IMG/VR virus record: IMGVR_UViG_3300020202_000061
Coordinates: 314,950-347,504 of that record
DNA: 32,555 bases
Strand: one strand, 5' to 3'
Source: a virus
The notes below the pieces were generated by a model that saw nothing but the letters and a program-made list of their open reading frames with translations, did no database searches and had not been told where the DNA came from. Positions 2,667 through 32,555 of this stretch are shown piece by piece. Made by a program: the position numbers and the translations under genes. Positions within the stretch are counted from its first letter, which is position 1. Every line of letters begins with the position of its first letter.

Positions 2667-3779
2667 ATGAGCAAGTTCTTCGGTGGCAACAAGCCATACG
2701 ATTTCGCCGTATTCATCGGCCGTTTCCAACCCTTCCACAACGGACACAAGCAGGTCATCGACCGCGCTCTGGAACTCGCCCACAAGGTGATCGTTCTCGT
2801 TGGCTCTGCCGACTCCGGTCGCACTCTTCGCAATCCATTCACATTCGATGAGCGCAAGGAAATGATCCTGGGCCACTATGACGTGGACGGATTGAACCCC
2901 TACGCTCCGAATGTCGGCGTCTTGGTCGAGCCGCTCCCGGACATCGCTTACAGCGATACCACCTGGGTCATGCAGGTCCAGAAGATTGTGGATCAGGTCG
3001 TCCTACGCGAGATCAATGCCGCACATCCCAACGCGGGCATCCACGGTACCCTGGACGCACGGGTCTGTCTGATCGGCCACAACAAGGACAACACCAGCTA
3101 TTACTTGAAGCTGTTCCCGCAGTGGTCCTCCGAGAATGTGCCGCAGACCGAACTGCTGGCGGCAACGAACATTCGTGACGTATTCTTCGGCCGCAAGGGT
3201 GGTGTCGGCGATATGCCGAATTCGGTCGCAGATTTTCTTCTGAAATTCACCAACACACCCGACTACATGTCACTCTGCGAAGAATACGAATTCATCCGCA
3301 AGTATCGTGAATCCTGGGCAGGAGCACCATACGCTCCGGTGTTCGTGACAGGTGACGCCGTGGTGATCCAGTCCGGACATATCCTGCTAGTTCGCCGCAA
3401 GAACCATCCCGGTCGTGGTCTACTCGCGTTGCCCGGTGGCTTCGTCAACCAGGACGAACGCATCCTCGACGGGGTGATCCGTGAACTCAAAGAGGAAACC
3501 AACATCCGTGATGGTCGTGGCACGATCCCACCGGGCGTGCTGGAGGGATTCATCGAGGGTTGGGGTGTCTACGATGCCCCGCATCGCGATCCTCGTGGCC
3601 GTGTCATCACCCACGCCTACCTGTTCAAGCTACCCGACTCCAAATCGCTCTACAAGGTGAAGGGCGGCGATGATGCGGAATCCGCCCAGTGGTATCCGCT
3701 GGGCACGTTGAAGCGTTCCGACTTCTACGCGGATCACTACGACATCATCCAGAAACTCATCGATACGGACGTGGAGTAA
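2667..3779 (+). CDS. Bifunctional NMN adenylyltransferase / Nudix hydrolase (NadM-Nudix type)
   Basis: A 370-residue two-domain enzyme. The N-terminal half is a nucleotidyltransferase: GRFQPFHNGH at residues 18-27 binds the ATP phosphates, and AATNIRD near residue 168 corresponds to the ISxTxIR motif. It should join NMN and ATP to NAD+. From about residue 220 follows a Nudix domain with the full box G-x5-E-x7-R-E-x-x-E-E from about residue 257 (GGFVNQDE, RELKEET). Similar fusions (Synechocystis slr0787, Francisella NadM) hydrolyse ADP-ribose in the Nudix half. The length fits that family. It is the first gene of the NAD operon, so it would supply the last synthetic step and could clear ADP-ribose left by NAD-cleaving enzymes. 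No key residue appears to be missing. Confidence 0.92.
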   Translation: MSKFFGGNKPYDFAVFIGRFQPFHNGHKQVIDRALELAHKVIVLVGSADSGRTLRNPFTFDERKEMILGHYDVDGLNPYAPNVGVLVEPLPDIAYSDTTWVMQVQKIVDQVVLREINAAHPNAGIHGTLDARVCLIGHNKDNTSYYLKLFPQWSSENVPQTELLAATNIRDVFFGRKGGVGDMPNSVADFLLKFTNTPDYMSLCEEYEFIRKYRESWAGAPYAPVFVTGDAVVIQSGHILLVRRKNHPGRGLLALPGGFVNQDERILDGVIRELKEETNIRDGRGTIPPGVLEGFIEGWGVYDAPHRDPRGRVITHAYLFKLPDSKSLYKVKGGDDAESAQWYPLGTLKRSDFYADHYDIIQKLIDTDVE

Positions 3780-3785
3780 ACGCCC

Positions 3786-3974
3786 ATGGCCTACTATGTG
3801 ATCGGCGGCGAATACACCAACACCAAGTTCGAAGAATTCGTGGACGGAAAGGGCGAGAAATACGGTCCATTCCCGACCTACGACGCGGCCGAAGTCAAAT
3901 GGCGCGAACGATCCTGGGCCAACGTGGACAACTGTCACGCTCGCTACACCATTCAGGGGGAACCAAATGCTTAA
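3786..3974 (+). CDS. DUF4170-like small protein inside the NAD operon
   Basis: A 62-residue protein starting MAYYVIGGEYTNTKFEEF, then YGPFPTYDAAEVKW, WANVDNCHARYTI. This pattern (Y-V-x-G-G-E-Y near the start, YGPF, W-R-x-R-x-W, V-D-x-C) resembles DUF4170, a short family I know mainly from alphaproteobacterial chromosomes. No function is known to me. GGAG precedes the ATG, the start lies six bases after the previous stop, and the end overlaps the pnuC gene by eight bases. It is therefore translated with NAD salvage enzymes and may assist one of them, possibly the transporter. The family assignment is from memory of the pattern and was not searched. Confidence 0.75.
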   Translation: MAYYVIGGEYTNTKFEEFVDGKGEKYGPFPTYDAAEVKWRERSWANVDNCHARYTIQGEPNA

Positions 3975-4710
3975 ACTGTTTGAATACAACTCGTTCCGTG
4001 AACTCTTCACGGTGTCCTGGCTGAGTCTGCTCGCCGTGATGCTGTGGAAGATCATCGGCATCGGATTGTTCGAGGATTTCGCGCCGAGCCCGGTCGAGTT
4101 CTTCGGAACATGGCTGACCCTGATCTGTGTGTGGCTGACGGGTCGCCAGAATATGTGGTGCTGGCCCACCGGCATTGTCAGTGTGCTGCTGTTCGCCTAC
4201 ACCTTCTACGAATATCAACTCTACGCCAGCGCCATTCTGAACGCCGGATACTACTTCCTGGTTCAGTTTTGGGGCTGGTACCAGTGGGAGAAGGGTCGCC
4301 TCGTTCAGTGGACCGAATCCTGGACCCAGCGTATCGGTATTATCTTGGCAATCCTTGGCTTCACCCTGGTTTGGGGCTGGTTCACCAGCTACACCGATGC
4401 CCAGTATATCGCAGTGGATTGTGCGATCATGGGCATCAGTATCGTTGCCCAATGGCTACTCAACTACAAACGTCCCGAAGCATGGCTGCTGTTCATTACG
4501 GTGAATGTGCTCTCGACGTGGCTCTACTTCACCACGGGCCTCTACATGATCGGTGCGCTCTACTTCGGGTTCATCTTCGTGGCCGCCTACGGCTGCTGGC
4601 AGTGGCATCAGAATCGTGTCGTTGGTCTGAGGGAACTTGCTGATCAAATTTACAACGAGCTTTTCACTCACGAGACCCGCGTGCCTCGCAAGGACAACAA
4701 CTATGTTTAA
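3967..4710 (+). CDS. pnuC: Nicotinamide riboside transporter PnuC
   Basis: A 247-residue integral membrane protein with about seven hydrophobic segments and many tryptophans. The PnuC signature is visible: RQNMWCWPTGIVSVLLFAYTF, then NAGYYFLVQFWGWYQW, where the aromatic residues line the nucleoside path in known structures. PnuC carries nicotinamide riboside across the inner membrane by facilitated diffusion, and phosphorylation by NadR-type kinase traps it as NMN. That kinase is encoded by the next gene, whose start overlaps this stop by eight bases. The length fits the bacterial family (about 240 residues). The start overlaps the DUF4170-like gene, which implies coupled translation. Confidence 0.92.
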   Translation: MLKLFEYNSFRELFTVSWLSLLAVMLWKIIGIGLFEDFAPSPVEFFGTWLTLICVWLTGRQNMWCWPTGIVSVLLFAYTFYEYQLYASAILNAGYYFLVQFWGWYQWEKGRLVQWTESWTQRIGIILAILGFTLVWGWFTSYTDAQYIAVDCAIMGISIVAQWLLNYKRPEAWLLFITVNVLSTWLYFTTGLYMIGALYFGFIFVAAYGCWQWHQNRVVGLRELADQIYNELFTHETRVPRKDNNYV

Positions 4711-5752
4711 TCGCGGGCTCATCATCGGCAAGTTCATGCCGTTCCATCGCGGGCACGAGTACCTGATCCGCTTCGCCATGCAACACTGCAACACACTGGA
4801 CGTGATCGTGTGCACGAACCGCGAGGAACCCATCGAGGGGCATCGTCGCTGGCAGTGCGTGGCCCGCAGTCTTGCTGGGCTCCAGGAATGCACGGTCAAC
4901 GTCCTGTGGTATCAGAACGATCTCCCGCAGGAACCCGCAGGGATCACCGATGAAGCGTTCTGGAAGGCATGGGTGCGTGGTGTGACCAACGAGGTTCACT
5001 ACCTCAAGGGGATCGGTCCACGTGGTCGCATCCACTACGACGCGCTATTCGCCTCGGAGAACTACGCGTGGCGCTTCGCTCGTGAACTCGGAGCGGAATA
5101 CGTCCCGGTCAACCCGATCCGCTCCATTGTACCGATCAGCGCGACCAAGCTTCGTGCTGATCCCCTGGGCTACTGGGAATACCTCACAGAAGAAGCCCGA
5201 GAGGACTACGTACAGACCATTGTTATCGGTGGTCCAGAGTCCTGCGGGAAATCCACCATGTGCAAGTTGCTCGCAGACGAATTCAAGACCATCTACGTCC
5301 CGGAGTATGGCCGCGATTTCTACGAAATGCGCAACCTCGACATCAACCACGTGCGCTACGAACACATGGAACTGATCGCACACGGACACTTCGCCAGCGT
5401 AGACGCGGCCAAGCGCCATGCCAATCGCAGACTATTCGTGGACACCGACGTTTTCTCCACGATCCTGTTCTCGAAAATCTACTTCAAGAAGGTGTCCGAG
5501 GACCTCTATCTGGATGCGGAATCCTGGAAGCCTAATCTGACATTGGTGTGCAAACCCAATGTTGAGTGGGTGCAGGATCAACTCCGTAACCTCGGACACC
5601 TGCGCGACCAATTCTTCGACGACTACGTTGGTCTGCTCGAAGAATACAAGCTTCCCTACAAGGTCATTGACGGCGGCCAATACGGGGATCGTCTACTTGA
5701 TGCCGTCAAACACGTCCACGCCCTCGGGGGCGTCCCGAAGGCATCGAACTAG
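4703..5752 (+). CDS. nadR: NadR-like NMN adenylyltransferase / ribosylnicotinamide kinase
   Basis: A 349-residue two-domain enzyme. The N-terminal adenylyltransferase has GKFMPFHRGH at residues 9-18. The C-terminal kinase has the P-loop GGPESCGKST at residues 176-185, followed by YVPEYGRDFYE, a hallmark of the NadR kinase domain. It lacks the N-terminal repressor HTH of enterobacterial NadR, so it is probably purely enzymatic. The kinase turns imported nicotinamide riboside into NMN and the first domain turns NMN into NAD+. The frame is open from 4637, but the ATG at 4703 has AAGGA upstream and overlaps the pnuC stop by eight bases. It is the second NMN adenylyltransferase of this operon, an uncommon redundancy. 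Confidence 0.92.
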   Translation: MFNRGLIIGKFMPFHRGHEYLIRFAMQHCNTLDVIVCTNREEPIEGHRRWQCVARSLAGLQECTVNVLWYQNDLPQEPAGITDEAFWKAWVRGVTNEVHYLKGIGPRGRIHYDALFASENYAWRFARELGAEYVPVNPIRSIVPISATKLRADPLGYWEYLTEEAREDYVQTIVIGGPESCGKSTMCKLLADEFKTIYVPEYGRDFYEMRNLDINHVRYEHMELIAHGHFASVDAAKRHANRRLFVDTDVFSTILFSKIYFKKVSEDLYLDAESWKPNLTLVCKPNVEWVQDQLRNLGHLRDQFFDDYVGLLEEYKLPYKVIDGGQYGDRLLDAVKHVHALGGVPKASN

Positions 5753-5765
5753 AGGAGTTCTAGCA

Positions 5766-7175
5766 ATGTATGTGAAACCCAATATCATGATCGATACCGA
5801 CTCGTACAAGGTCAGCCACTGGCTCCAGTACCCGCCGGGCACCGAATACGTGTCCTCCTACATCGAGGCCCGCAAACAGTTCATCACCGAGGAACTCGTG
5901 TTCTTCGGGCTCCAAATGTTCCTCAAGCAGTATCTGAGCGAACCCATCACTCAGGAACAGATCGATGAGGCGGCGGAGTTTTGGGCCGCCCACGGCGAGC
6001 CTTTCAACAAAGAGGGCTGGGAATACATCCTGCGTGTTCACAACGGCAAGCTGCCCGTGGCAATCCGAGCGATTCCCGAGGGCACCGTCATCCCGGTCAG
6101 CAACATGCTGGTTCAGGTCCAGAACACCGATCCGAAAGTGCCCTGGTTGGTCAGCTACCTGGAGACGATGCTGCTCCAGGCCATCTGGTACCCGACCACG
6201 GTCGCGACTCTCTCCTGGGAAACCAAGAAGATAATCCACGGCTATCTCAAGGCGACCTGCGACAATCCGGATGCAGAGATCGGCTTCAAGTTGCACGACT
6301 TCGGCTTCCGTGGAGTCAGCAGTCGTGAATCCGCTGGTATCGGCGGGTGCGCCCATCTGGTCAACTTCATGGGCACAGACACCGCCATCGGTGCGATGTA
6401 TGCCCGTGCCTTCTACAACGAGCCCATGGCTGGATTTTCGATTCCGGCGGCCGAACACTCCACGATCACCAGTTGGGGTCGTGAGAATGAGGTTCTGGCG
6501 TTCAAGAACATGCTGGACAAGTTCGGTGATGGTCCGCTTGTCGCGGTGGTGAGTGATTCCTACGACATCTACAACGCCGCTCGGGTGCTGTGGGGCATGG
6601 AACTGCGTGAGCAGGTCCTCAACATGAAGGCGACCCTTGTGGTGCGTCCGGACTCCGGCGATCCCACCTGGGTGCCGGTGGAGATCATCGAAATCCTCGG
6701 CGACAAGTTCGGCTACACCACCAACTCGAAGGGCTTCAAAGTCCTGAACAAGTGCCGTGTCATCCAGGGCGACGGCATGGTGCACGCCACCATCAACAAG
6801 TTGCTCAGCAACCTTCTGGTGCGCGGCTGGTCGGCCGAGAACATTGCGTTCGGCATGGGCGGGGGTCTGCTCCAGCATCAGGTCAGCCGTGATAGCCTGG
6901 GCTTCGCCATGAAGGCCAGCGCAATCAAGGACTCGGTTGGATGGCTCGACGTGTTCAAGGACCCCATCACCGACAAGGGAAAGGTCTCGAAGAGGGGCAG
7001 GCTGATCACGGTCCGCTACGACGATGGTCGTTACGAGACCACGAACATGGACTACAATGATCTGCTCCAGCATGACTTTCGCCCACCCGAGCAGATCGAC
7101 CGTCTCGTCTGGAAGAATGGCAAGCTGATCATTGACGAGGATTTCGCCACGATCAGAAAGCGTTCATGGGCGTAA
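5766..7175 (+). CDS. nadV: Nicotinamide phosphoribosyltransferase NadV (NAMPT)
   Basis: A 469-residue enzyme that makes NMN from nicotinamide and PRPP. Family landmarks appear in order: IMIDTDSYKVSHWLQYPPGT at the N-terminus, HDFGFRGVSSRESAGIGG, IPAAEHSTI with the catalytic-loop histidine, VVSDSYDIYN, VVRPDSGDP and GMGGGLLQHQVSRD near the C-terminus. The length fits bacterial and phage NadV. The frame is open far upstream (5559), but the ATG at 5766 has GAGGAG at a good distance and starts 13 bases after nadR, so 5766 is preferred. It closes the operon and is followed at once by a strong terminator. Together with either adenylyltransferase it completes the two-step route from nicotinamide to NAD+. 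Confidence 0.95.
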   Translation: MYVKPNIMIDTDSYKVSHWLQYPPGTEYVSSYIEARKQFITEELVFFGLQMFLKQYLSEPITQEQIDEAAEFWAAHGEPFNKEGWEYILRVHNGKLPVAIRAIPEGTVIPVSNMLVQVQNTDPKVPWLVSYLETMLLQAIWYPTTVATLSWETKKIIHGYLKATCDNPDAEIGFKLHDFGFRGVSSRESAGIGGCAHLVNFMGTDTAIGAMYARAFYNEPMAGFSIPAAEHSTITSWGRENEVLAFKNMLDKFGDGPLVAVVSDSYDIYNAARVLWGMELREQVLNMKATLVVRPDSGDPTWVPVEIIEILGDKFGYTTNSKGFKVLNKCRVIQGDGMVHATINKLLSNLLVRGWSAENIAFGMGGGLLQHQVSRDSLGFAMKASAIKDSVGWLDVFKDPITDKGKVSKRGRLITVRYDDGRYETTNMDYNDLLQHDFRPPEQIDRLVWKNGKLIIDEDFATIRKRSWA

Positions 7176-7180
7176 ACAAA

Positions 7181-7200
7181 AGGGGGCCGAAAGGCCCCCT
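7181..7200. terminator. Two-way terminator between the NAD operon and the tail fibre gene
   Basis: An 8-bp stem, AGGGGGCC against GGCCCCCT, closes on a GAAA tetraloop, with A-rich sequence on the left and T-rich sequence on the right. It sits between the stops of convergent genes at 7175 and 7206, so it can end transcripts from both sides. Confidence 0.9.
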
Positions 7201-7205
7201 TAGTT

Positions 7206-8729
7206 TTAGGCGAGCTTCCAGAATCGAACCTGAGCGTAGACTTCGATTTCTCCACTACCCGTGGTCGCCAGACCTAGGGCTCCTGCATTACCTTCACCAT
7301 TGGTGGAGGTGAAATACTGAATCTGGAAGTTCTTGTTTGAAGCAATCGTAAACACGCCATCCAGGATCGAGGACGAGACATCCGAATCCTGGTCGATGTT
7401 GGAGTAGGCGCACGATCCGACAACCGCAGTGGTGTTGTCGGTGACATTACGCAGACGAATCTTTGCACGCTCCAGATGGAAGAACGGTGCACTCGCATGT
7501 GCATGATAGGTTCCCGCAGGCAACGTTACTGTGTTCGACGCGAGCGAGGCTCCGGTAATGGAGTTGGTTTGGATCGCATTCAGCGCACGTGCGGTCCAGG
7601 TGTTGGCGATGGCCGTACCACCGTTGGTACCTGCCACCTTCTGATCCTGAACCACCATAAGCTGGACGGTGCCGCTACCACCTCCACCACCCGCAACTCC
7701 GGTGATGTCTTTCCGTGTGACCTCGACAATCGTGAAAACCTCGGGCACGCCGAAGTTCGCTGCCACACCAAATCCATCACCCGTCTGGGCATTCTGAACA
7801 CGGTGCTGAATCTCAAAGGTCTTTGCGGAACCCAGAGAGACATCGACGCTACCGAAAGAACTAGTCTGAACATCCGCCGTGCCCAGTGCGTATTCGCTGG
7901 AACCCATCGCGACATCAACCGCATCCGTGATGTTTCTCAGCTTGGATTTGTGACGGGCGCAGTTGTATGCGGGAGCCCACCACTTGATATTGTAGTTACC
8001 CGCAGGCAACGTGAACTGGTTCGCTGTGACAGTCGCGCCCGCAATCGTGTTGCTGAGGATCGTATTCAGGTTCCTGGTCAGGAACGTTCCGGCCGTGGTC
8101 GTGCCACCCGAGGTGTTCGCAGCCTTCTGATCCACCGCGATCATGTTCTTGATCGCCGCCGAACCACCGCCACCACTGCCTCCGCTACCCAGGAAGAAAA
8201 CCTGGAACGTTGTGGTTCCGGTGCAGACGATCTGGCAGGACTGAGCCGGAGTTAGAACAACCGTGCTGGTGTCGTTGATGGTCTGGGTGCTGAACGGGTC
8301 AATCGTGACATTACCGATACCGGTGTTCTTAATCTGGCAGGACCAACCCACACCGAGAGTCGCCGCATTATCCAGGAAGAATGAAAAAGTTCCGTTGCAG
8401 AGAAAACCCTTGCCGCGATCCGCAGCCTGGGCTGTATAGTTGGCCGAGAGGTTTACAGTGATGATCCGGTCATTCAGGTTCAGACCGATAACCGTGGCCC
8501 CGGTCACATCCAACAGACTCGAAATGATCACGTTGGAGGACTGGAGATTCGATACGTTTCCAGCCGTGCTCTGAACGTTCGTGAAGAAACCCACATCGGG
8601 CACACTCGCACCGATGGCGGTCGCGTCAATCCGGCGCGGACCCAACGTGTTACCCACGTTGTTCACGACCAGCTTGTTGACCGGTCTCACAGAGAGATCA
8701 ATTACGTCGCGTGTAGCTTTCGTGACCAT
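7206..8729 (-). CDS. Tail fibre protein with duplicated C-terminal receptor-type domain
   Basis: A 507-residue protein rich in Ala, Thr, Ser, Asn and Gly, typical of fibrous phage adhesins. An N-terminal part of about 190 residues has beta-repeat character. Two homologous domains follow. The first begins after a GSGGSGGGGS linker (IAVDQKAANTSGGTT, NQFTLPAGNYNI, KLRNITDAVDVAMGSSEYA). The second begins after GVAGGGGGSGTV (MVVQDQKVAGTNGGTA, NTVTLPAGTYHA, IRLRNVTDNTTAVVGSCAYS). Domains of this type are common tips of phage tail fibres and resemble jelly-roll modules. The ATG at 8729 has GGGGAAG upstream and a CTAAATA element 31 bases upstream. The likely role is host receptor binding. Confidence 0.85.
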   Translation of the reverse strand: MVTKATRDVIDLSVRPVNKLVVNNVGNTLGPRRIDATAIGASVPDVGFFTNVQSTAGNVSNLQSSNVIISSLLDVTGATVIGLNLNDRIITVNLSANYTAQAADRGKGFLCNGTFSFFLDNAATLGVGWSCQIKNTGIGNVTIDPFSTQTINDTSTVVLTPAQSCQIVCTGTTTFQVFFLGSGGSGGGGSAAIKNMIAVDQKAANTSGGTTTAGTFLTRNLNTILSNTIAGATVTANQFTLPAGNYNIKWWAPAYNCARHKSKLRNITDAVDVAMGSSEYALGTADVQTSSFGSVDVSLGSAKTFEIQHRVQNAQTGDGFGVAANFGVPEVFTIVEVTRKDITGVAGGGGGSGTVQLMVVQDQKVAGTNGGTAIANTWTARALNAIQTNSITGASLASNTVTLPAGTYHAHASAPFFHLERAKIRLRNVTDNTTAVVGSCAYSNIDQDSDVSSSILDGVFTIASNKNFQIQYFTSTNGEGNAGALGLATTGSGEIEVYAQVRFWKLA

Positions 8730-12914: not shown

Positions 12915-14759
12915 TTAGTTCTTCCACCAGTTGGGGAGACCGGCACGGCGACGAATCATCGCCAGTTCCTTCTCTTCTTCCCGACCCACATCGGGTGCAC
13001 TCGGCGAGGCCAACGGGCTCATGCCCGGAACCTTCGACAGCCACGCTTCCTTGAGCGGCTTCTTACCCTTGGCGACCTTCTTGCGGCGAGACTCCTTGAC
13101 CTCGTCCTTCTCCTCCTCGTCCTTCTCCCAAGGCTTCATCTGGCCGGACATGAGCTTGGTCTTACCCTCGTGCTCCTCCCCGCCCTCGGCTCCGGCTACA
13201 TCACCGTCACCCTCAGCCTTGTCCTCGAACTCGTTATCCTTGTCCTTCTCAGAATCCTCGTCGGACTTCTTCTCGGAGTCCCGATCATCCTCAGAATCAC
13301 CCTCGTCCCGTGCAGGCTCTTCCACCTCGACCCGGTCAACCTCTACCTCTTCCTCCGATCCTTCATCACCGCCAAAATCCGGTTCCTCGGCCGGAGCTTC
13401 CTCCGATCCCTCGTCGCCGCCGAAATCCGGCTCACTGGCGGGCTCCTCGGCAGGGACCTCCGCAGGTGCCCCCATGCTGGCCGCCGGGGCTACCGGGGCA
13501 GCAGCGGGCGATCCAGCGCCGTCAGCGAGTTCCTTGAGCTTACCCATGACCATGCCGATGTCGGCCACGTCCAGGGTACGATCCTCAGCGCAGCACTCGG
13601 CCACGGCCTGAGCGACCACCGACAGCTTATCGTCGGCGAGTTGATGCTTCACAGCAGCCTTGAGCAGCTTCACCAGGAATTCCTGGGTCACCGCGATCTC
13701 ACCCGCAGCCATATCGTGCTCGTTCATCATGGAGGGGTTCGGCAACTGCTTCGGAGCAGAAGTCGGCATCCCACCAACACCATCCATCATCTCATGCTTG
13801 CTGGTGACCATGCCGTCTCCGGTGCACTCCACCAGGATGTGCTCGATGTCGGCATCAGCCAGGGTCATACCCTCGGTCAGCTTGCGGTAGCTCGGCTTGG
13901 CCTTGCGGGACTCATCAGCCTTCTTGAATTTGTTCTGCTCGAACTTGCTCTCCTTGGATTCGTCCCGATCCGAGTCGGAATCGGAATCGGACTTCTCCGA
14001 ACTATCCGACTTCGGAGCCGAACTCTTCCCGAAGTTGGTCTCCTTGGAGCCGTTTCCGGAACTCGCATCACCACCGGCCGAAGCCGAACGAGTGTTGCCC
14101 TGACCGGGAGCTTCCATCCGCTTCCAGTTGATCGCGTCCAGCGCGTCATCGGGCATTTCCAGATTGTCCTCGCCGCCCTCACTGGCCGACTCAAATCCAC
14201 CCTCGGTGGAGAGCGGGCTCTGCGTGGTCACGGGCATGGCTTCGACATTGTCATTGTTCAGATCATTGGTGCCGACCTCACCACCGGTCCGAGCGGCCGG
14301 GGCGTCTTCATCCGCCTCCAACAGACCCAGATCGTAGGCGTCCAGAACCAACGAATCATTCTTCCAGAGCTTCTCACCCCGACCCACAAACATACCGGGA
14401 ATCGCCGCAATCGCCTCGGTAACCTTCTTCTTGCCCTTAGCCTTCTTCGCATCGATCTTCTTCACGGTTTTCTTCCCCACTGCTGCTTTCTTGGAATCCT
14501 TCGCATAGGATTCGATCACCTTCAGATGCTTGGCCTCGGCCGCACCCAACTTGTCCTCACCGAGAATGCGCAGATCAAGACGATCCCAACGCACACCAAC
14601 GGCGGTCTCGCTCAAAGAGACAATGACGCCTTTACCCTTCGTGGGGTGCTCCACACGGGATTCCACCTTGAATGACTTTCCAATCCTCTTGGCAGGCTTG
14701 GCAGACTCCTTCACGGAGCCCTTGGACAACTGATTCACAAGATCGCTGAACGATGACAT
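12915..14759 (-). CDS. Large acidic, repeat-containing structural-type protein
   Basis: A 614-residue protein of three parts. Residues 1-100 are basic and beta-like (RVEHPTKGKGVIVSLSE, VGVRWDRLDL), like a small KOW/SH3-type barrel, followed by a Lys-rich stretch. The middle holds ordered helical segments (EFLVKLLKAAVKHQLADDKL, MVMGKLKELAD). The last third is strongly acidic low-complexity sequence with a direct repeat of EPDFGGDEGSEE, ending in a basic patch and the motif ELAMIRRRAGLP. A tail of the form E-L-x-x-I-R-x-x-A-G occurs, as I recall, in virion proteins of T4-like phages. CTAAATA lies 28 bases before the ATG. A scaffold or prohead-core role is plausible; L-x-E sites (LTEG, LKEA) suit cleavage by a gp21-type protease. 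This is inference. Confidence 0.75.
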   Translation of the reverse strand: MSSFSDLVNQLSKGSVKESAKPAKRIGKSFKVESRVEHPTKGKGVIVSLSETAVGVRWDRLDLRILGEDKLGAAEAKHLKVIESYAKDSKKAAVGKKTVKKIDAKKAKGKKKVTEAIAAIPGMFVGRGEKLWKNDSLVLDAYDLGLLEADEDAPAARTGGEVGTNDLNNDNVEAMPVTTQSPLSTEGGFESASEGGEDNLEMPDDALDAINWKRMEAPGQGNTRSASAGGDASSGNGSKETNFGKSSAPKSDSSEKSDSDSDSDRDESKESKFEQNKFKKADESRKAKPSYRKLTEGMTLADADIEHILVECTGDGMVTSKHEMMDGVGGMPTSAPKQLPNPSMMNEHDMAAGEIAVTQEFLVKLLKAAVKHQLADDKLSVVAQAVAECCAEDRTLDVADIGMVMGKLKELADGAGSPAAAPVAPAASMGAPAEVPAEEPASEPDFGGDEGSEEAPAEEPDFGGDEGSEEEVEVDRVEVEEPARDEGDSEDDRDSEKKSDEDSEKDKDNEFEDKAEGDGDVAGAEGGEEHEGKTKLMSGQMKPWEKDEEEKDEVKESRRKKVAKGKKPLKEAWLSKVPGMSPLASPSAPDVGREEEKELAMIRRRAGLPNWWKN

Positions 14760-30029: not shown

Positions 30030-30889
30030 ACCAGCACATACCTTCCCTGAGCCTCGGCCAGGGCGTTCTCAAAATGGGATGCAAGAATCTCAGCAAGATC
30101 ATCGAGCCATCTACCATAGTAGTCGAAATCGTGATCATTCACCTTAGACCGAGCCGCGTAGCCTCCACGCTTACCGAAATACTTCGGGAGTGGATTAAAC
30201 GTGATCTTCCCCGTGGTCACATACTGGGCGAATAGCTCATAGAGGAACTCGACCGCGTCCACCAACTTCCCACCACGTGCGGAGCGCATCGTGCCAATAG
30301 CCGAGAGAAAGTGACCTACCATGACATCACGGAATTCGAATTCACGCCCCTGGGAGTAACTGGCGGATCGTCTCCGCACCCCATAGACCTGATCCAACAG
30401 ACCCAGAACTACGCGGGTCAATTCACGCCGCGCCTCTCCCCAGGAGTAGATGTTGTTTCCGTTACTCATTACGTTGGACTGACGAAAAGCGTGTCCCAGA
30501 CGATGAGCCATCATCCACGGTGTGAGTGGGTATCTGGGCGATCCCTTGTTACCGGTGAAGATCACATTGATGTCGTCGAACTTGGGCTTCTTCTGACTGA
30601 GCACGGCCCAGGTCTTCGGATACTTCTCGGCCAGACGTTCCGGACTGATCACACCATCGAACGTGGCCGGATTAATCTCGGGTAGATTCACGAAGTACAT
30701 GTTCAGGACGAACGGAGTTTTGCCGAATTGCTGACGAGCACTGTCCTGGAGCTTTGGCGACCGCACGAGCTTACGATCCGAGGGGATGCGGAACCGGCTG
30801 TTGCGATCCTTATTGCCCCAGAGACCGATGGTCTCGAAATCCCCAATCGGAGCTTCGTAGAGCGGTGTGTTGAACTGGCTCAGTTTCAC
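30026..30889 (-). CDS. Possible internal head protein with L-x-E-A leader and HRLGH motif
   Basis: A 287-residue protein. The N-terminus MKLSQFNTPLYEA again places L-x-E-A after a short leader starting M-K. The middle contains TPWMMAHRLGHAFRQSN. HRLGH has the spacing of the zinc-protease motif HExxH, but Arg stands where the catalytic Glu belongs. A helical part (ELTRVVLGLLDQVYG, DAVEFLYELFAQYV) follows. I know of no proven function. It could be a zinc-binding but inactive relative or an unrelated fold. The start is GTG, overlapping the preceding stop as GTGA. A GTAAATA element lies 50 bases upstream. Confidence 0.75.
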   Translation of the reverse strand: MKLSQFNTPLYEAPIGDFETIGLWGNKDRNSRFRIPSDRKLVRSPKLQDSARQQFGKTPFVLNMYFVNLPEINPATFDGVISPERLAEKYPKTWAVLSQKKPKFDDINVIFTGNKGSPRYPLTPWMMAHRLGHAFRQSNVMSNGNNIYSWGEARRELTRVVLGLLDQVYGVRRRSASYSQGREFEFRDVMVGHFLSAIGTMRSARGGKLVDAVEFLYELFAQYVTTGKITFNPLPKYFGKRGGYAARSKVNDHDFDYYGRWLDDLAEILASHFENALAEAQGRYVLV

Positions 30890-32555
30890 TTTGCTTTCTT
30901 CCTGACAGGCTTCTTCTTTTCCGGCTCCACGAATGGGATATTTACCTCTTCCATAAACCTTTCAAAGGCGGCTTCCCTATCATAACCAGACCATCCATAG
31001 CGGGGTTCATCCAGATCACGGAGTTCGAACATCCTCTGCCAATCACCACCGTTGTTCACCAATTCGTAGTCCTGACCCAGGACCAATGCCAGGGCTTCAG
31101 GTCGAATCATCACTCGGACATTTGTATCCTGTGCCTTCTGATGCTTTTCATCACCCCAAACAACAAAGAGTTCATATTTTCCTGTAGGATTACCAAGCCA
31201 CTTCAAATACTGTTCATACGCGTCGTTTTGTTCTCCCACTTCCAGACCAGCAATTACACCATCCTTTCCGGCACGAATGATCTCATCATCATGCTCGTCC
31301 AGGATTTGGAGCATCTCACTATCGGTTAGGTCCGAATACGATTGATTACCCATATCGGTGCAATCCTCGTTGTATTCCGACCATACGTACTTCTGGAGAT
31401 TGGTGTGGCTGTTCGGATATTTCTTCTTCAGATCGATTAGGAGATCATCGAGTTGATCAATAGAAATGTCTCTGTAGCTGTAATCTGCATGCTCTCCATT
31501 GCCGGACATATAATCGGCGGCCTGCCATGCCCAGTATGTTCCTTTCTCCGAACCCCAATTGTGCACAAACGATTCAATATCTGAGAGATTACGGTCGATG
31601 ACGAAACCCTTCTGGTCGGAATCGTATGGTTCCAACAAATAACCGTTTGGTCCGGCCGCAGCATCCAGGATAGCACGTGCCTTGTCGTAGAAGGCAGGCT
31701 GTGTCGGACCAAATTTCTTCAGAATGTACTGAGGATCAGCCAGTCCCGGTTTCATCTCGGCAAGACGATCCGCATCAGCCTGTGGGAGGTCGGACAGCGT
31801 GAAATTCTTGTGAGCCTCATATCCACCACCTCTGATCCCCTTGATCATGGGATGTTCGAGCAGTTTAATGATGTAGGGAAAATACCTCGCCACCGGCTTA
31901 TCATTGGATTTACCCTTCATCTCACCAAGCATGCCGTTCGTGGTATCCAGGACGAACGTCAGATGAGGCTCCCACATCTGTTGCCCATCGACCGGCTTAG
32001 GCGTACGATAAGACAGCAAGGTATCCCGTTCACGAGCGATGTCCTGGCTATTGCCACAATGACCCATCGCGTTAGCCTCGGCCGAACAGGATACTCTGTT
32101 CAAATTGAACCAAGCCGAGCCATCCGGGAACTCGATGATCTTCTCGGTTCCATCTTGCTGAGCGATCAGCCCTTTAACCTGCTTCTGCCACTCCTTTTCG
32201 ATATGTTTGAACTCGGCGACCAGCCCCTCGGGGGTCTGATAGCCCCAAACGATCTGATTGATCTTGGGCAGATTCATACCCATAAAGTGACCAAGCTCGC
32301 GCTCGAAGCCGATCCCGAACGACATGTTCCAGCGTTCGTTATCCTTGAATTGGGGTTCACCCATCTTCTGGAGTAGTCGCGATCCCTCGACGACAATCCA
32401 ATCGTTGAGTTGCTTGGCCTCAGCCGCCTGCTGGGGTGTCATTGTCCCCCGACGCTCAAGGAAGTTTCTCTGAGCGGCGGCACGGTCAATGCGCTTCAAA
32501 CGGAGATACCAGACGATGCGATCATCGCGCTTTAGGACACGGATGGCCCAATCCA
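30886..32555 (-). CDS. Large protein with a PcfJ-like MGHCGN region, 5' end outside the window
   Basis: The frame stays open through the right edge (reading DWAIRVLKRDDRIVWYLRL before the first TTG at 32499), so the start is missing; 555 residues are visible. A central region reads SCSAEANAMGHCGN, then TLLSYRTPKP, LTFVLDTTNGMLGEMKGKSN and KPVARYFPYIIKLL. This follows the pattern of PcfJ-like proteins and related families (E-x-x-x-M-x-H-C-x-x, a serine/arginine strand, then G-x-x-x-x-x-KG-x-x-N-x-x-P). An acidic segment (HDDEIIRAGKDGVIAGLEV) and a basic tail (KKKPVRKKAK) follow. Activity unknown. It is the first visible gene of a three-gene set with the possible internal head proteins. Confidence 0.75.
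   Translation of the reverse strand, partial: DWAIRVLKRDDRIVWYLRLKRIDRAAAQRNFLERRGTMTPQQAAEAKQLNDWIVVEGSRLLQKMGEPQFKDNERWNMSFGIGFERELGHFMGMNLPKINQIVWGYQTPEGLVAEFKHIEKEWQKQVKGLIAQQDGTEKIIEFPDGSAWFNLNRVSCSAEANAMGHCGNSQDIARERDTLLSYRTPKPVDGQQMWEPHLTFVLDTTNGMLGEMKGKSNDKPVARYFPYIIKLLEHPMIKGIRGGGYEAHKNFTLSDLPQADADRLAEMKPGLADPQYILKKFGPTQPAFYDKARAILDAAAGPNGYLLEPYDSDQKGFVIDRNLSDIESFVHNWGSEKGTYWAWQAADYMSGNGEHADYSYRDISIDQLDDLLIDLKKKYPNSHTNLQKYVWSEYNEDCTDMGNQSYSDLTDSEMLQILDEHDDEIIRAGKDGVIAGLEVGEQNDAYEQYLKWLGNPTGKYELFVVWGDEKHQKAQDTNVRVMIRPEALALVLGQDYELVNNGGDWQRMFELRDLDEPRYGWSGYDREAAFERFMEEVNIPFVEPEKKKPVRKKAK
30939..30945 (-). promoter_or_regulatory. Late-type promoter element within the end of the large gene
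   Basis: GTAAATA on the minus strand, followed by TCCC, 50 bases before the GTG start at 30889. The same variant occurs at 29281. It lies inside coding sequence and may be chance. Confidence 0.3.

Follow-up and report, generated by a model that had tools for sequence, protein, structure and literature searches.

Five tightly packed genes near the right-hand end of a contig from a jumbo phage very likely form an NAD+ salvage operon, a reading to which a probability of roughly 0.85 is assigned. The window, meaning the whole stretch of 32,555 nucleotides that was analyzed, spans bases 314950–347504 of a linear IMG/VR virus record of 347,504 bases. All five genes lie on the plus strand at window positions 2667–7175, in the order NadM-Nudix, DUF4170, PnuC, NadR and NAMPT/NadV, and are separated by 6, −8, −8 and 13 bases. 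The original prediction had placed here an operon for nicotinamide phosphoribosyltransferase, PnuC import, ribosylnicotinamide kinase and two NMN adenylyltransferases. These activities are indeed all encoded in that interval, with family matches far above chance, and the gaps bear out the operon-like packing. The proposed count of five NAD genes did not stand. The kinase and the second adenylyltransferase are parts of a single NadR, leaving four NAD proteins, and the fifth gene encodes not a separate NAD enzyme but a 62-aa DUF4170 protein that had gone unmentioned. The genes, their packing and their catalytic motifs are read directly from the DNA; the reactions and substrates are assigned from protein families and are very probably correct.

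A GC-rich hairpin at 7180–7201, with a 9-bp stem, a GAAA loop on the plus strand and a T-rich tail (RNA fold −20.6 kcal/mol, z −3.8), sits between nadV and a convergent tail-fibre gene and is likely a bidirectional terminator for both. A simple terminator consensus scan detected this hairpin on the minus strand only, and sites in the region were no more frequent than in shuffled sequence. A sigma-70 promoter scan upstream of the operon returned nothing above chance, and thus the 94-aa gene at 2317–2601 could share the operon transcript. The convergent tail-fibre-like protein (7206–8729, minus strand) contains one domain in two copies, as two stretches match phrog_24210. Two other large proteins of the window are encoded on the minus strand: one at 30886–32499 without a Pfam match, and a low-complexity acidic protein at 12915–14759 without a PHROG match.

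Enzymes encoded by the cluster

The first gene (2667–3779, plus strand) encodes a 370-aa bifunctional protein of the NadM/NatV type, identified through profiles, structural homology and motifs. Its NMN adenylyltransferase occupies residues ~14–200 and is followed by an ADP-ribose-pyrophosphatase-type Nudix domain (residues ~204–366). The protein matches NF003786 with an E-value of 8.6e-118, 3 bits short of the strict cut-off, as well as PF00293 (E 3e-18), PF01467 (E 2e-12) and phrog_395 (E 5e-75). Both halves align with the structures 2qjo (E 3.5e-79, residues 10–365) and 2qjt (E 5.8e-62). The GRFQPFHNGH and AATNIR motifs of the NadM half are intact, and the Nudix half, fused to this HIGH-type NMNAT, carries the Nudix box GFVNQDERILDGVIRELKEETNI with a complete REUXEE core. 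The strict Nudix box is missed solely at the Gly position, where ETN replaces EXG; 2qjo departs from it likewise (ETR). In all 64 viral relatives compared, each matching 85% or more of this protein, Nudix Glu 273, 276 and 277 are unchanged, as are the His residues of the adenylyltransferase motif and the final Arg. This conservation of the metal-binding Glu residues indicates that the Nudix half is probably active, and that phages have probably kept it so rather than carrying it as a relic. It deserves attention because the anti-NADase papers cited here emphasize NAD+ resynthesis.

PnuC, a predicted nicotinamide riboside transporter of 247 aa (3967–4710, plus strand), is recognized by PF04973 (E 2.6e-41), by TIGR01528 above its cut-off and by the structure 4qtn (E 7e-7). 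The adjoining gene (4703–5752, plus strand) encodes a 349-aa NadR, in which an NMNAT domain is fused to a P-loop ribosylnicotinamide kinase domain. Its start was read from the sequence as the ATG at 4703, overlapping the pnuC stop; a longer ORF call begins upstream. NadR matches TIGR01526 over residues 25–353 of that long call (E 2.9e-62, under the 341-bit cut-off), PF13521 (E 9e-22), phrog_3462 (E 9e-70) and the structure 1lw7 (E 5.5e-38). The motifs GKFMPFHRGH and ISATKLR and the P-loop GPESCGKS are intact, and no DNA-binding domain was seen in the protein. The NMNAT motifs HxGH and xTxxR are thus preserved in both the NadM half and the NadR half. When TIGR01526 was run over 40 viral records carrying NadM-like matches, 38 gave matches, mostly to the NadM adenylyltransferase domain alone, and full-length NadR was present in 6. 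Single-query scans of viral contigs with NadR, PnuC and DUF4170 returned zero relatives, as expected of a pattern search that reaches close relatives only.

The last gene (5766–7175, plus strand) encodes NAMPT/NadV, a nicotinamide phosphoribosyltransferase of 469 aa whose start was read as the ATG at 5766 following an AGAGGAG Shine-Dalgarno sequence; here too a longer ORF call begins upstream. It matches NF006629 (E 3e-182), phrog_448 (E 7e-159), PF04095 and PF18127, and its solved homologs include Xanthomonas Nampt (7yqo, E 1e-152) and human NAMPT. The motifs KLHDFG.RG, AAEHST, RPDSG and SKRGRL are present, and all 46 viral relatives compared retain the catalytic His, RPDSG and RD unchanged. 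NARP2, reportedly described by Osterman et al. in 2024, is said to consist of NAMPT plus NMNAT. Both of these defining genes are encoded here, NAMPT with intact active-site motifs and NMNAT as the NadM and NadR halves, so the likeness to NARP2-type NAD+ restoration drawn by the original prediction is supported at the level of gene content. NARP2 is mentioned in outline elsewhere (PMC12300627; PMC12028318).

Proposed pathway and benefit to the phage

In the proposed pathway, NAMPT would convert host nicotinamide and PRPP into NMN. In parallel, PnuC would import nicotinamide riboside for phosphorylation to NMN by the NadR kinase domain. Either adenylyltransferase, the NadM half or the NadR half, could then join NMN and ATP into NAD+. 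The Nudix half would cleave ADP-ribose to AMP and ribose-5-phosphate, and host PRPP synthetase could return the latter to PRPP; the host enzyme is invoked because the record has no PRPP synthetase gene. With the nicotinamide and riboside routes both contained in 4.5 kb, the cluster is convenient for testing either branch against an NADase defence.

An anti-defence role for such a cluster is plausible, and the odds are about even that its main selected benefit is the upkeep of NAD+, as in NARP2, once TIR- or SIR2-type NADase defences of the host are triggered. A counter-NADase role of phage NAD genes has already been proposed (PMC9503650). Two observations count against such a benefit here. Neither a Tad2-type Thoeris sponge nor SIR2 was found when both were searched for in the record, and the lack of the sponge is the first of them. 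The second is that PnuC and NadR draw on nicotinamide riboside from outside the cell, a compound that is not a product of NADases. The riboside branch, being independent of NADase products, suits general auxiliary metabolism. Under that reading the operon would have no particular tie to defence: it would enlarge the overall NAD+ pool, on which a 350-kb phage draws for DNA ligation, ribonucleotide reduction and energy metabolism while it completes its lengthy replication. This purely metabolic role explains the same genes and is given somewhat less than an even chance. NadV is commonest in medium (22%) and jumbo (33%) phages, compared to ~2% of small ones (PMC9503650), and an NAD-demand role was proposed for the jumbo phage Atu_ph07 (PMC6102473). 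What auxiliary metabolism alone accounts for less readily are the ADP-ribose-directed parts of this phage, namely the Nudix half, a SLOG-NADAR protein and a macro domain, which fit a conflict with NAD-consuming or ADP-ribosylating defences. The metabolic and anti-defence readings are compatible, and both can be true.

The SLOG-NADAR protein is a fusion of YAcAr (PF10686) and NADAR (PF08719) encoded outside the window, 8 kb upstream of the operon, at about 308485–309354 of the record (L088:8486-9355). It possibly removes ADP-ribose modifications or binds ADP-ribose; NADAR beside NAD salvage genes has been noted previously (PMC9503650). The macro-domain protein (PF01661, DarG-like in PADLOC) lies at about 213902–214390 (L089:7403-7891) and adjoins a phage S-adenosylmethionine synthetase gene. 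Together with the Nudix half, these proteins suggest that this phage encounters defences based on ADP-ribose. A further protein of 643 aa, at about 154568–156499 (L094:1411-3342, minus strand), has a C-terminal Nudix domain as its sole Pfam match. Its N-terminus starts MYHGTTTHALRSIMTHGVVP and is reminiscent, by eye, of ADP-ribosyltransferase folds.

For the NadM-linked Nudix half, the best PDB matches are 2QJO and 2QJT. Both have been assigned to the ADP-ribose pyrophosphatases (PMC5389931), and the same activity is predicted for the phage domain by homology. Together with the metal-binding Glu residues invariant in 64/64 relatives, these matches uphold its earlier description as an ADP-ribose-type domain. 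A different role, as a brake or housekeeper that cleaves NAD+/NADH or NAD-capped RNA instead of disposing of ADP-ribose waste, would agree with the statement that cleavage by the Nudix domain of NadM serves to regulate NAD+ (PMC9503650) and with the differing substrates of Nudix enzymes. It is nevertheless unlikely, as the nearest solved relatives are the two pyrophosphatases, with which the phage domain shares the APYAP (APFKP in 2QJT) and GRxI(T/S)H context. The suggestion that this half also destroys the Thoeris signal found no support: its predicted substrate is ADP-ribose in the linear form, and cleavage of 2′/3′cADPR is the activity of a different phage enzyme, a characterized RyR-domain glycosidase (PMC13232231).

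A NARP1-like route, in which the transferase would be a Namat using ADP-ribose-pyrophosphate directly, is highly improbable: although the phage context fits and Namat is homologous to NAMPT (PMC12774641), the transferase lacks the clamp motif of Namat, GSX..TRD with aromatic residues in positions 3 and 7 (residues 366–376 here read GGLLQHQVSRD, with no aromatic residue), no PRPP-synthetase-like partner Adps occurs in the record, and the adjacent Nudix ADP-ribose hydrolase would compete for the transferase's substrate. The search for Adps used PF13793 and gave no match in the 347.5-kb record, which may be incomplete, while the control was positive in 14/14. NARP1 identity was rejected on the missing motif and the missing Adps-like gene, and by gene content the cluster thus resembles NARP2 instead.

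The DUF4170 gene and the likely host

The second gene (3786–3974, plus strand) encodes the DUF4170 protein of 62 aa (PF13773, E 9e-22), which is related to the solved structure 2mhe (E 1.7e-8). A first scan of genomes with DUF4170 came back empty; a small alignment used as the query recovered 76 bacterial loci, nearly all from Caulobacterales or Hyphomonadaceae. In the searches run, the family turned up in Alphaproteobacteria and a few phages. This distribution and the closest nucleotide and NadM matches, which are to Mesorhizobium, Ruegeria, Rhizobium and Phaeobacter phages, support an alphaproteobacterial host. No nucleotide relatives of window positions 8000–32500 were found among GenBank phages.

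It is conceivable, though improbable, that all five genes act as one unit, with DUF4170 serving NAD salvage as a new small partner or regulator, and with the Nudix half channelling NADase-derived ADP-ribose back to PRPP for the neighbouring NAMPT. The link of DUF4170 to NAD is a weak lead, since in two other NadM-carrying phages the gene lies ~140 kb and 12 kb from NadM, and its neighbors in sampled Alphaproteobacteria are the TldD, inositol-monophosphatase, LpxK and KdtA genes, with no NAD genes. None of 80 fetched viral NadM-Nudix loci has a DUF4170 match inside the NAD cluster. Sinorhizobium phage Phosso (264731–276892) has another, unrelated NAD cluster, apparently of a Preiss-Handler-type route, which encodes NAD synthetase, nicotinate phosphoribosyltransferase, DUF4170, Nudix, NMNAT, a hydrolase and a nucleoside deoxyribosyltransferase. 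The DUF4170 gene of Phosso is flanked by the nicotinate phosphoribosyltransferase gene and the Nudix/NMNAT pair, a placement that hints at a link to NAD.

Comparison with known NAD+ salvage systems

The gene set was originally thought to exceed known phage pathways, yet at least two named phages and two viral contigs carry all four NAD proteins. One example is the Vibrio phage KVP40, which encodes NatV (an NMNAT-Nudix protein), NadV (NAMPT), NadR and PnuC; function of natV and nadV was demonstrated by Lee (2017), as cited in passages of PMC7139368, PMC9503650 and PMC6715854. Its nadR (113.6–114.6 kb) and pnuC (115.5–116.2 kb) are 1 kb apart, and natV and nadV lie outside the 16 kb examined around them, whereas here the four share one 4.5-kb run with DUF4170. 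PnuC is ~31% identical between the two. Another is the Ochrobactrum jumbo phage vB_OspM_OC, with NatV (p132), NadV (p128), NadR (p119) and PnuC (p120) in a looser span of ~14 genes, a likeness of gene content taken from its description rather than from sequence (PMC7139368).

In the IMG/VR contigs L021 (IMGVR_UViG_3300042502_001458) and L030 (IMGVR_UViG_3300047548_001236), all four genes are co-directional within 5–6 kb, and in L021 the NadR start likewise overlaps the PnuC stop. Their order differs (PnuC-NadR-NadM-small ORF-NAMPT) and includes no DUF4170 match. Their NadR proteins are 28–31% identical to the one described here and have an altered HIGH-type motif. At L021:6650-7696 and L030:7857-8924, ALVPTIGH and ALVPTLGH, respectively, replace GKFMPxHxGH, and these proteins are possibly kinase-only enzymes beside an intact NadM. 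Among the 80 viral loci fetched, these two carry the four-gene run, and none has the exact order seen in the window. Across these loci, a NAMPT match occurs within 10 kb of NadM-Nudix in 48, usually with NadM just upstream. Caulobacter phages are also among the NadM-Nudix carriers, and in Caulobacter phage CcrBL9 pnuC adjoins nadR. A 2022 survey (PMC9503650, section 3.6) states that NadM-bearing phages all have NadV and that NadR may co-occur with both.

Cellular counterparts are found in Synechocystis slr0787/slr0788 and in Francisella NadM, which share the NMNAT-Nudix protein with this cluster (PMC3680494; PMC6610520). In Synechocystis the NAMPT gene carries the adjacent number; for neither system was coupling to PnuC or NadR noted. 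The recycling logic of the proposed closed repair loop is anticipated by this work, which described for bacterial NadM-Nudix how ADP-ribose would yield AMP and ribose-5-phosphate, and the latter PRPP, alongside the adenylylation of NMN (PMC3680494). Relative to NARP2, whose two defining reactions are both encoded, the cluster adds PnuC, the NadR kinase and the Nudix half. The combination of NadM, PnuC, NadR and NAMPT is not new and leaves the known picture of phage NAD+ salvage unchanged; the cluster is best read as a new member of the known NARP2-type kind with a nicotinamide-riboside branch.
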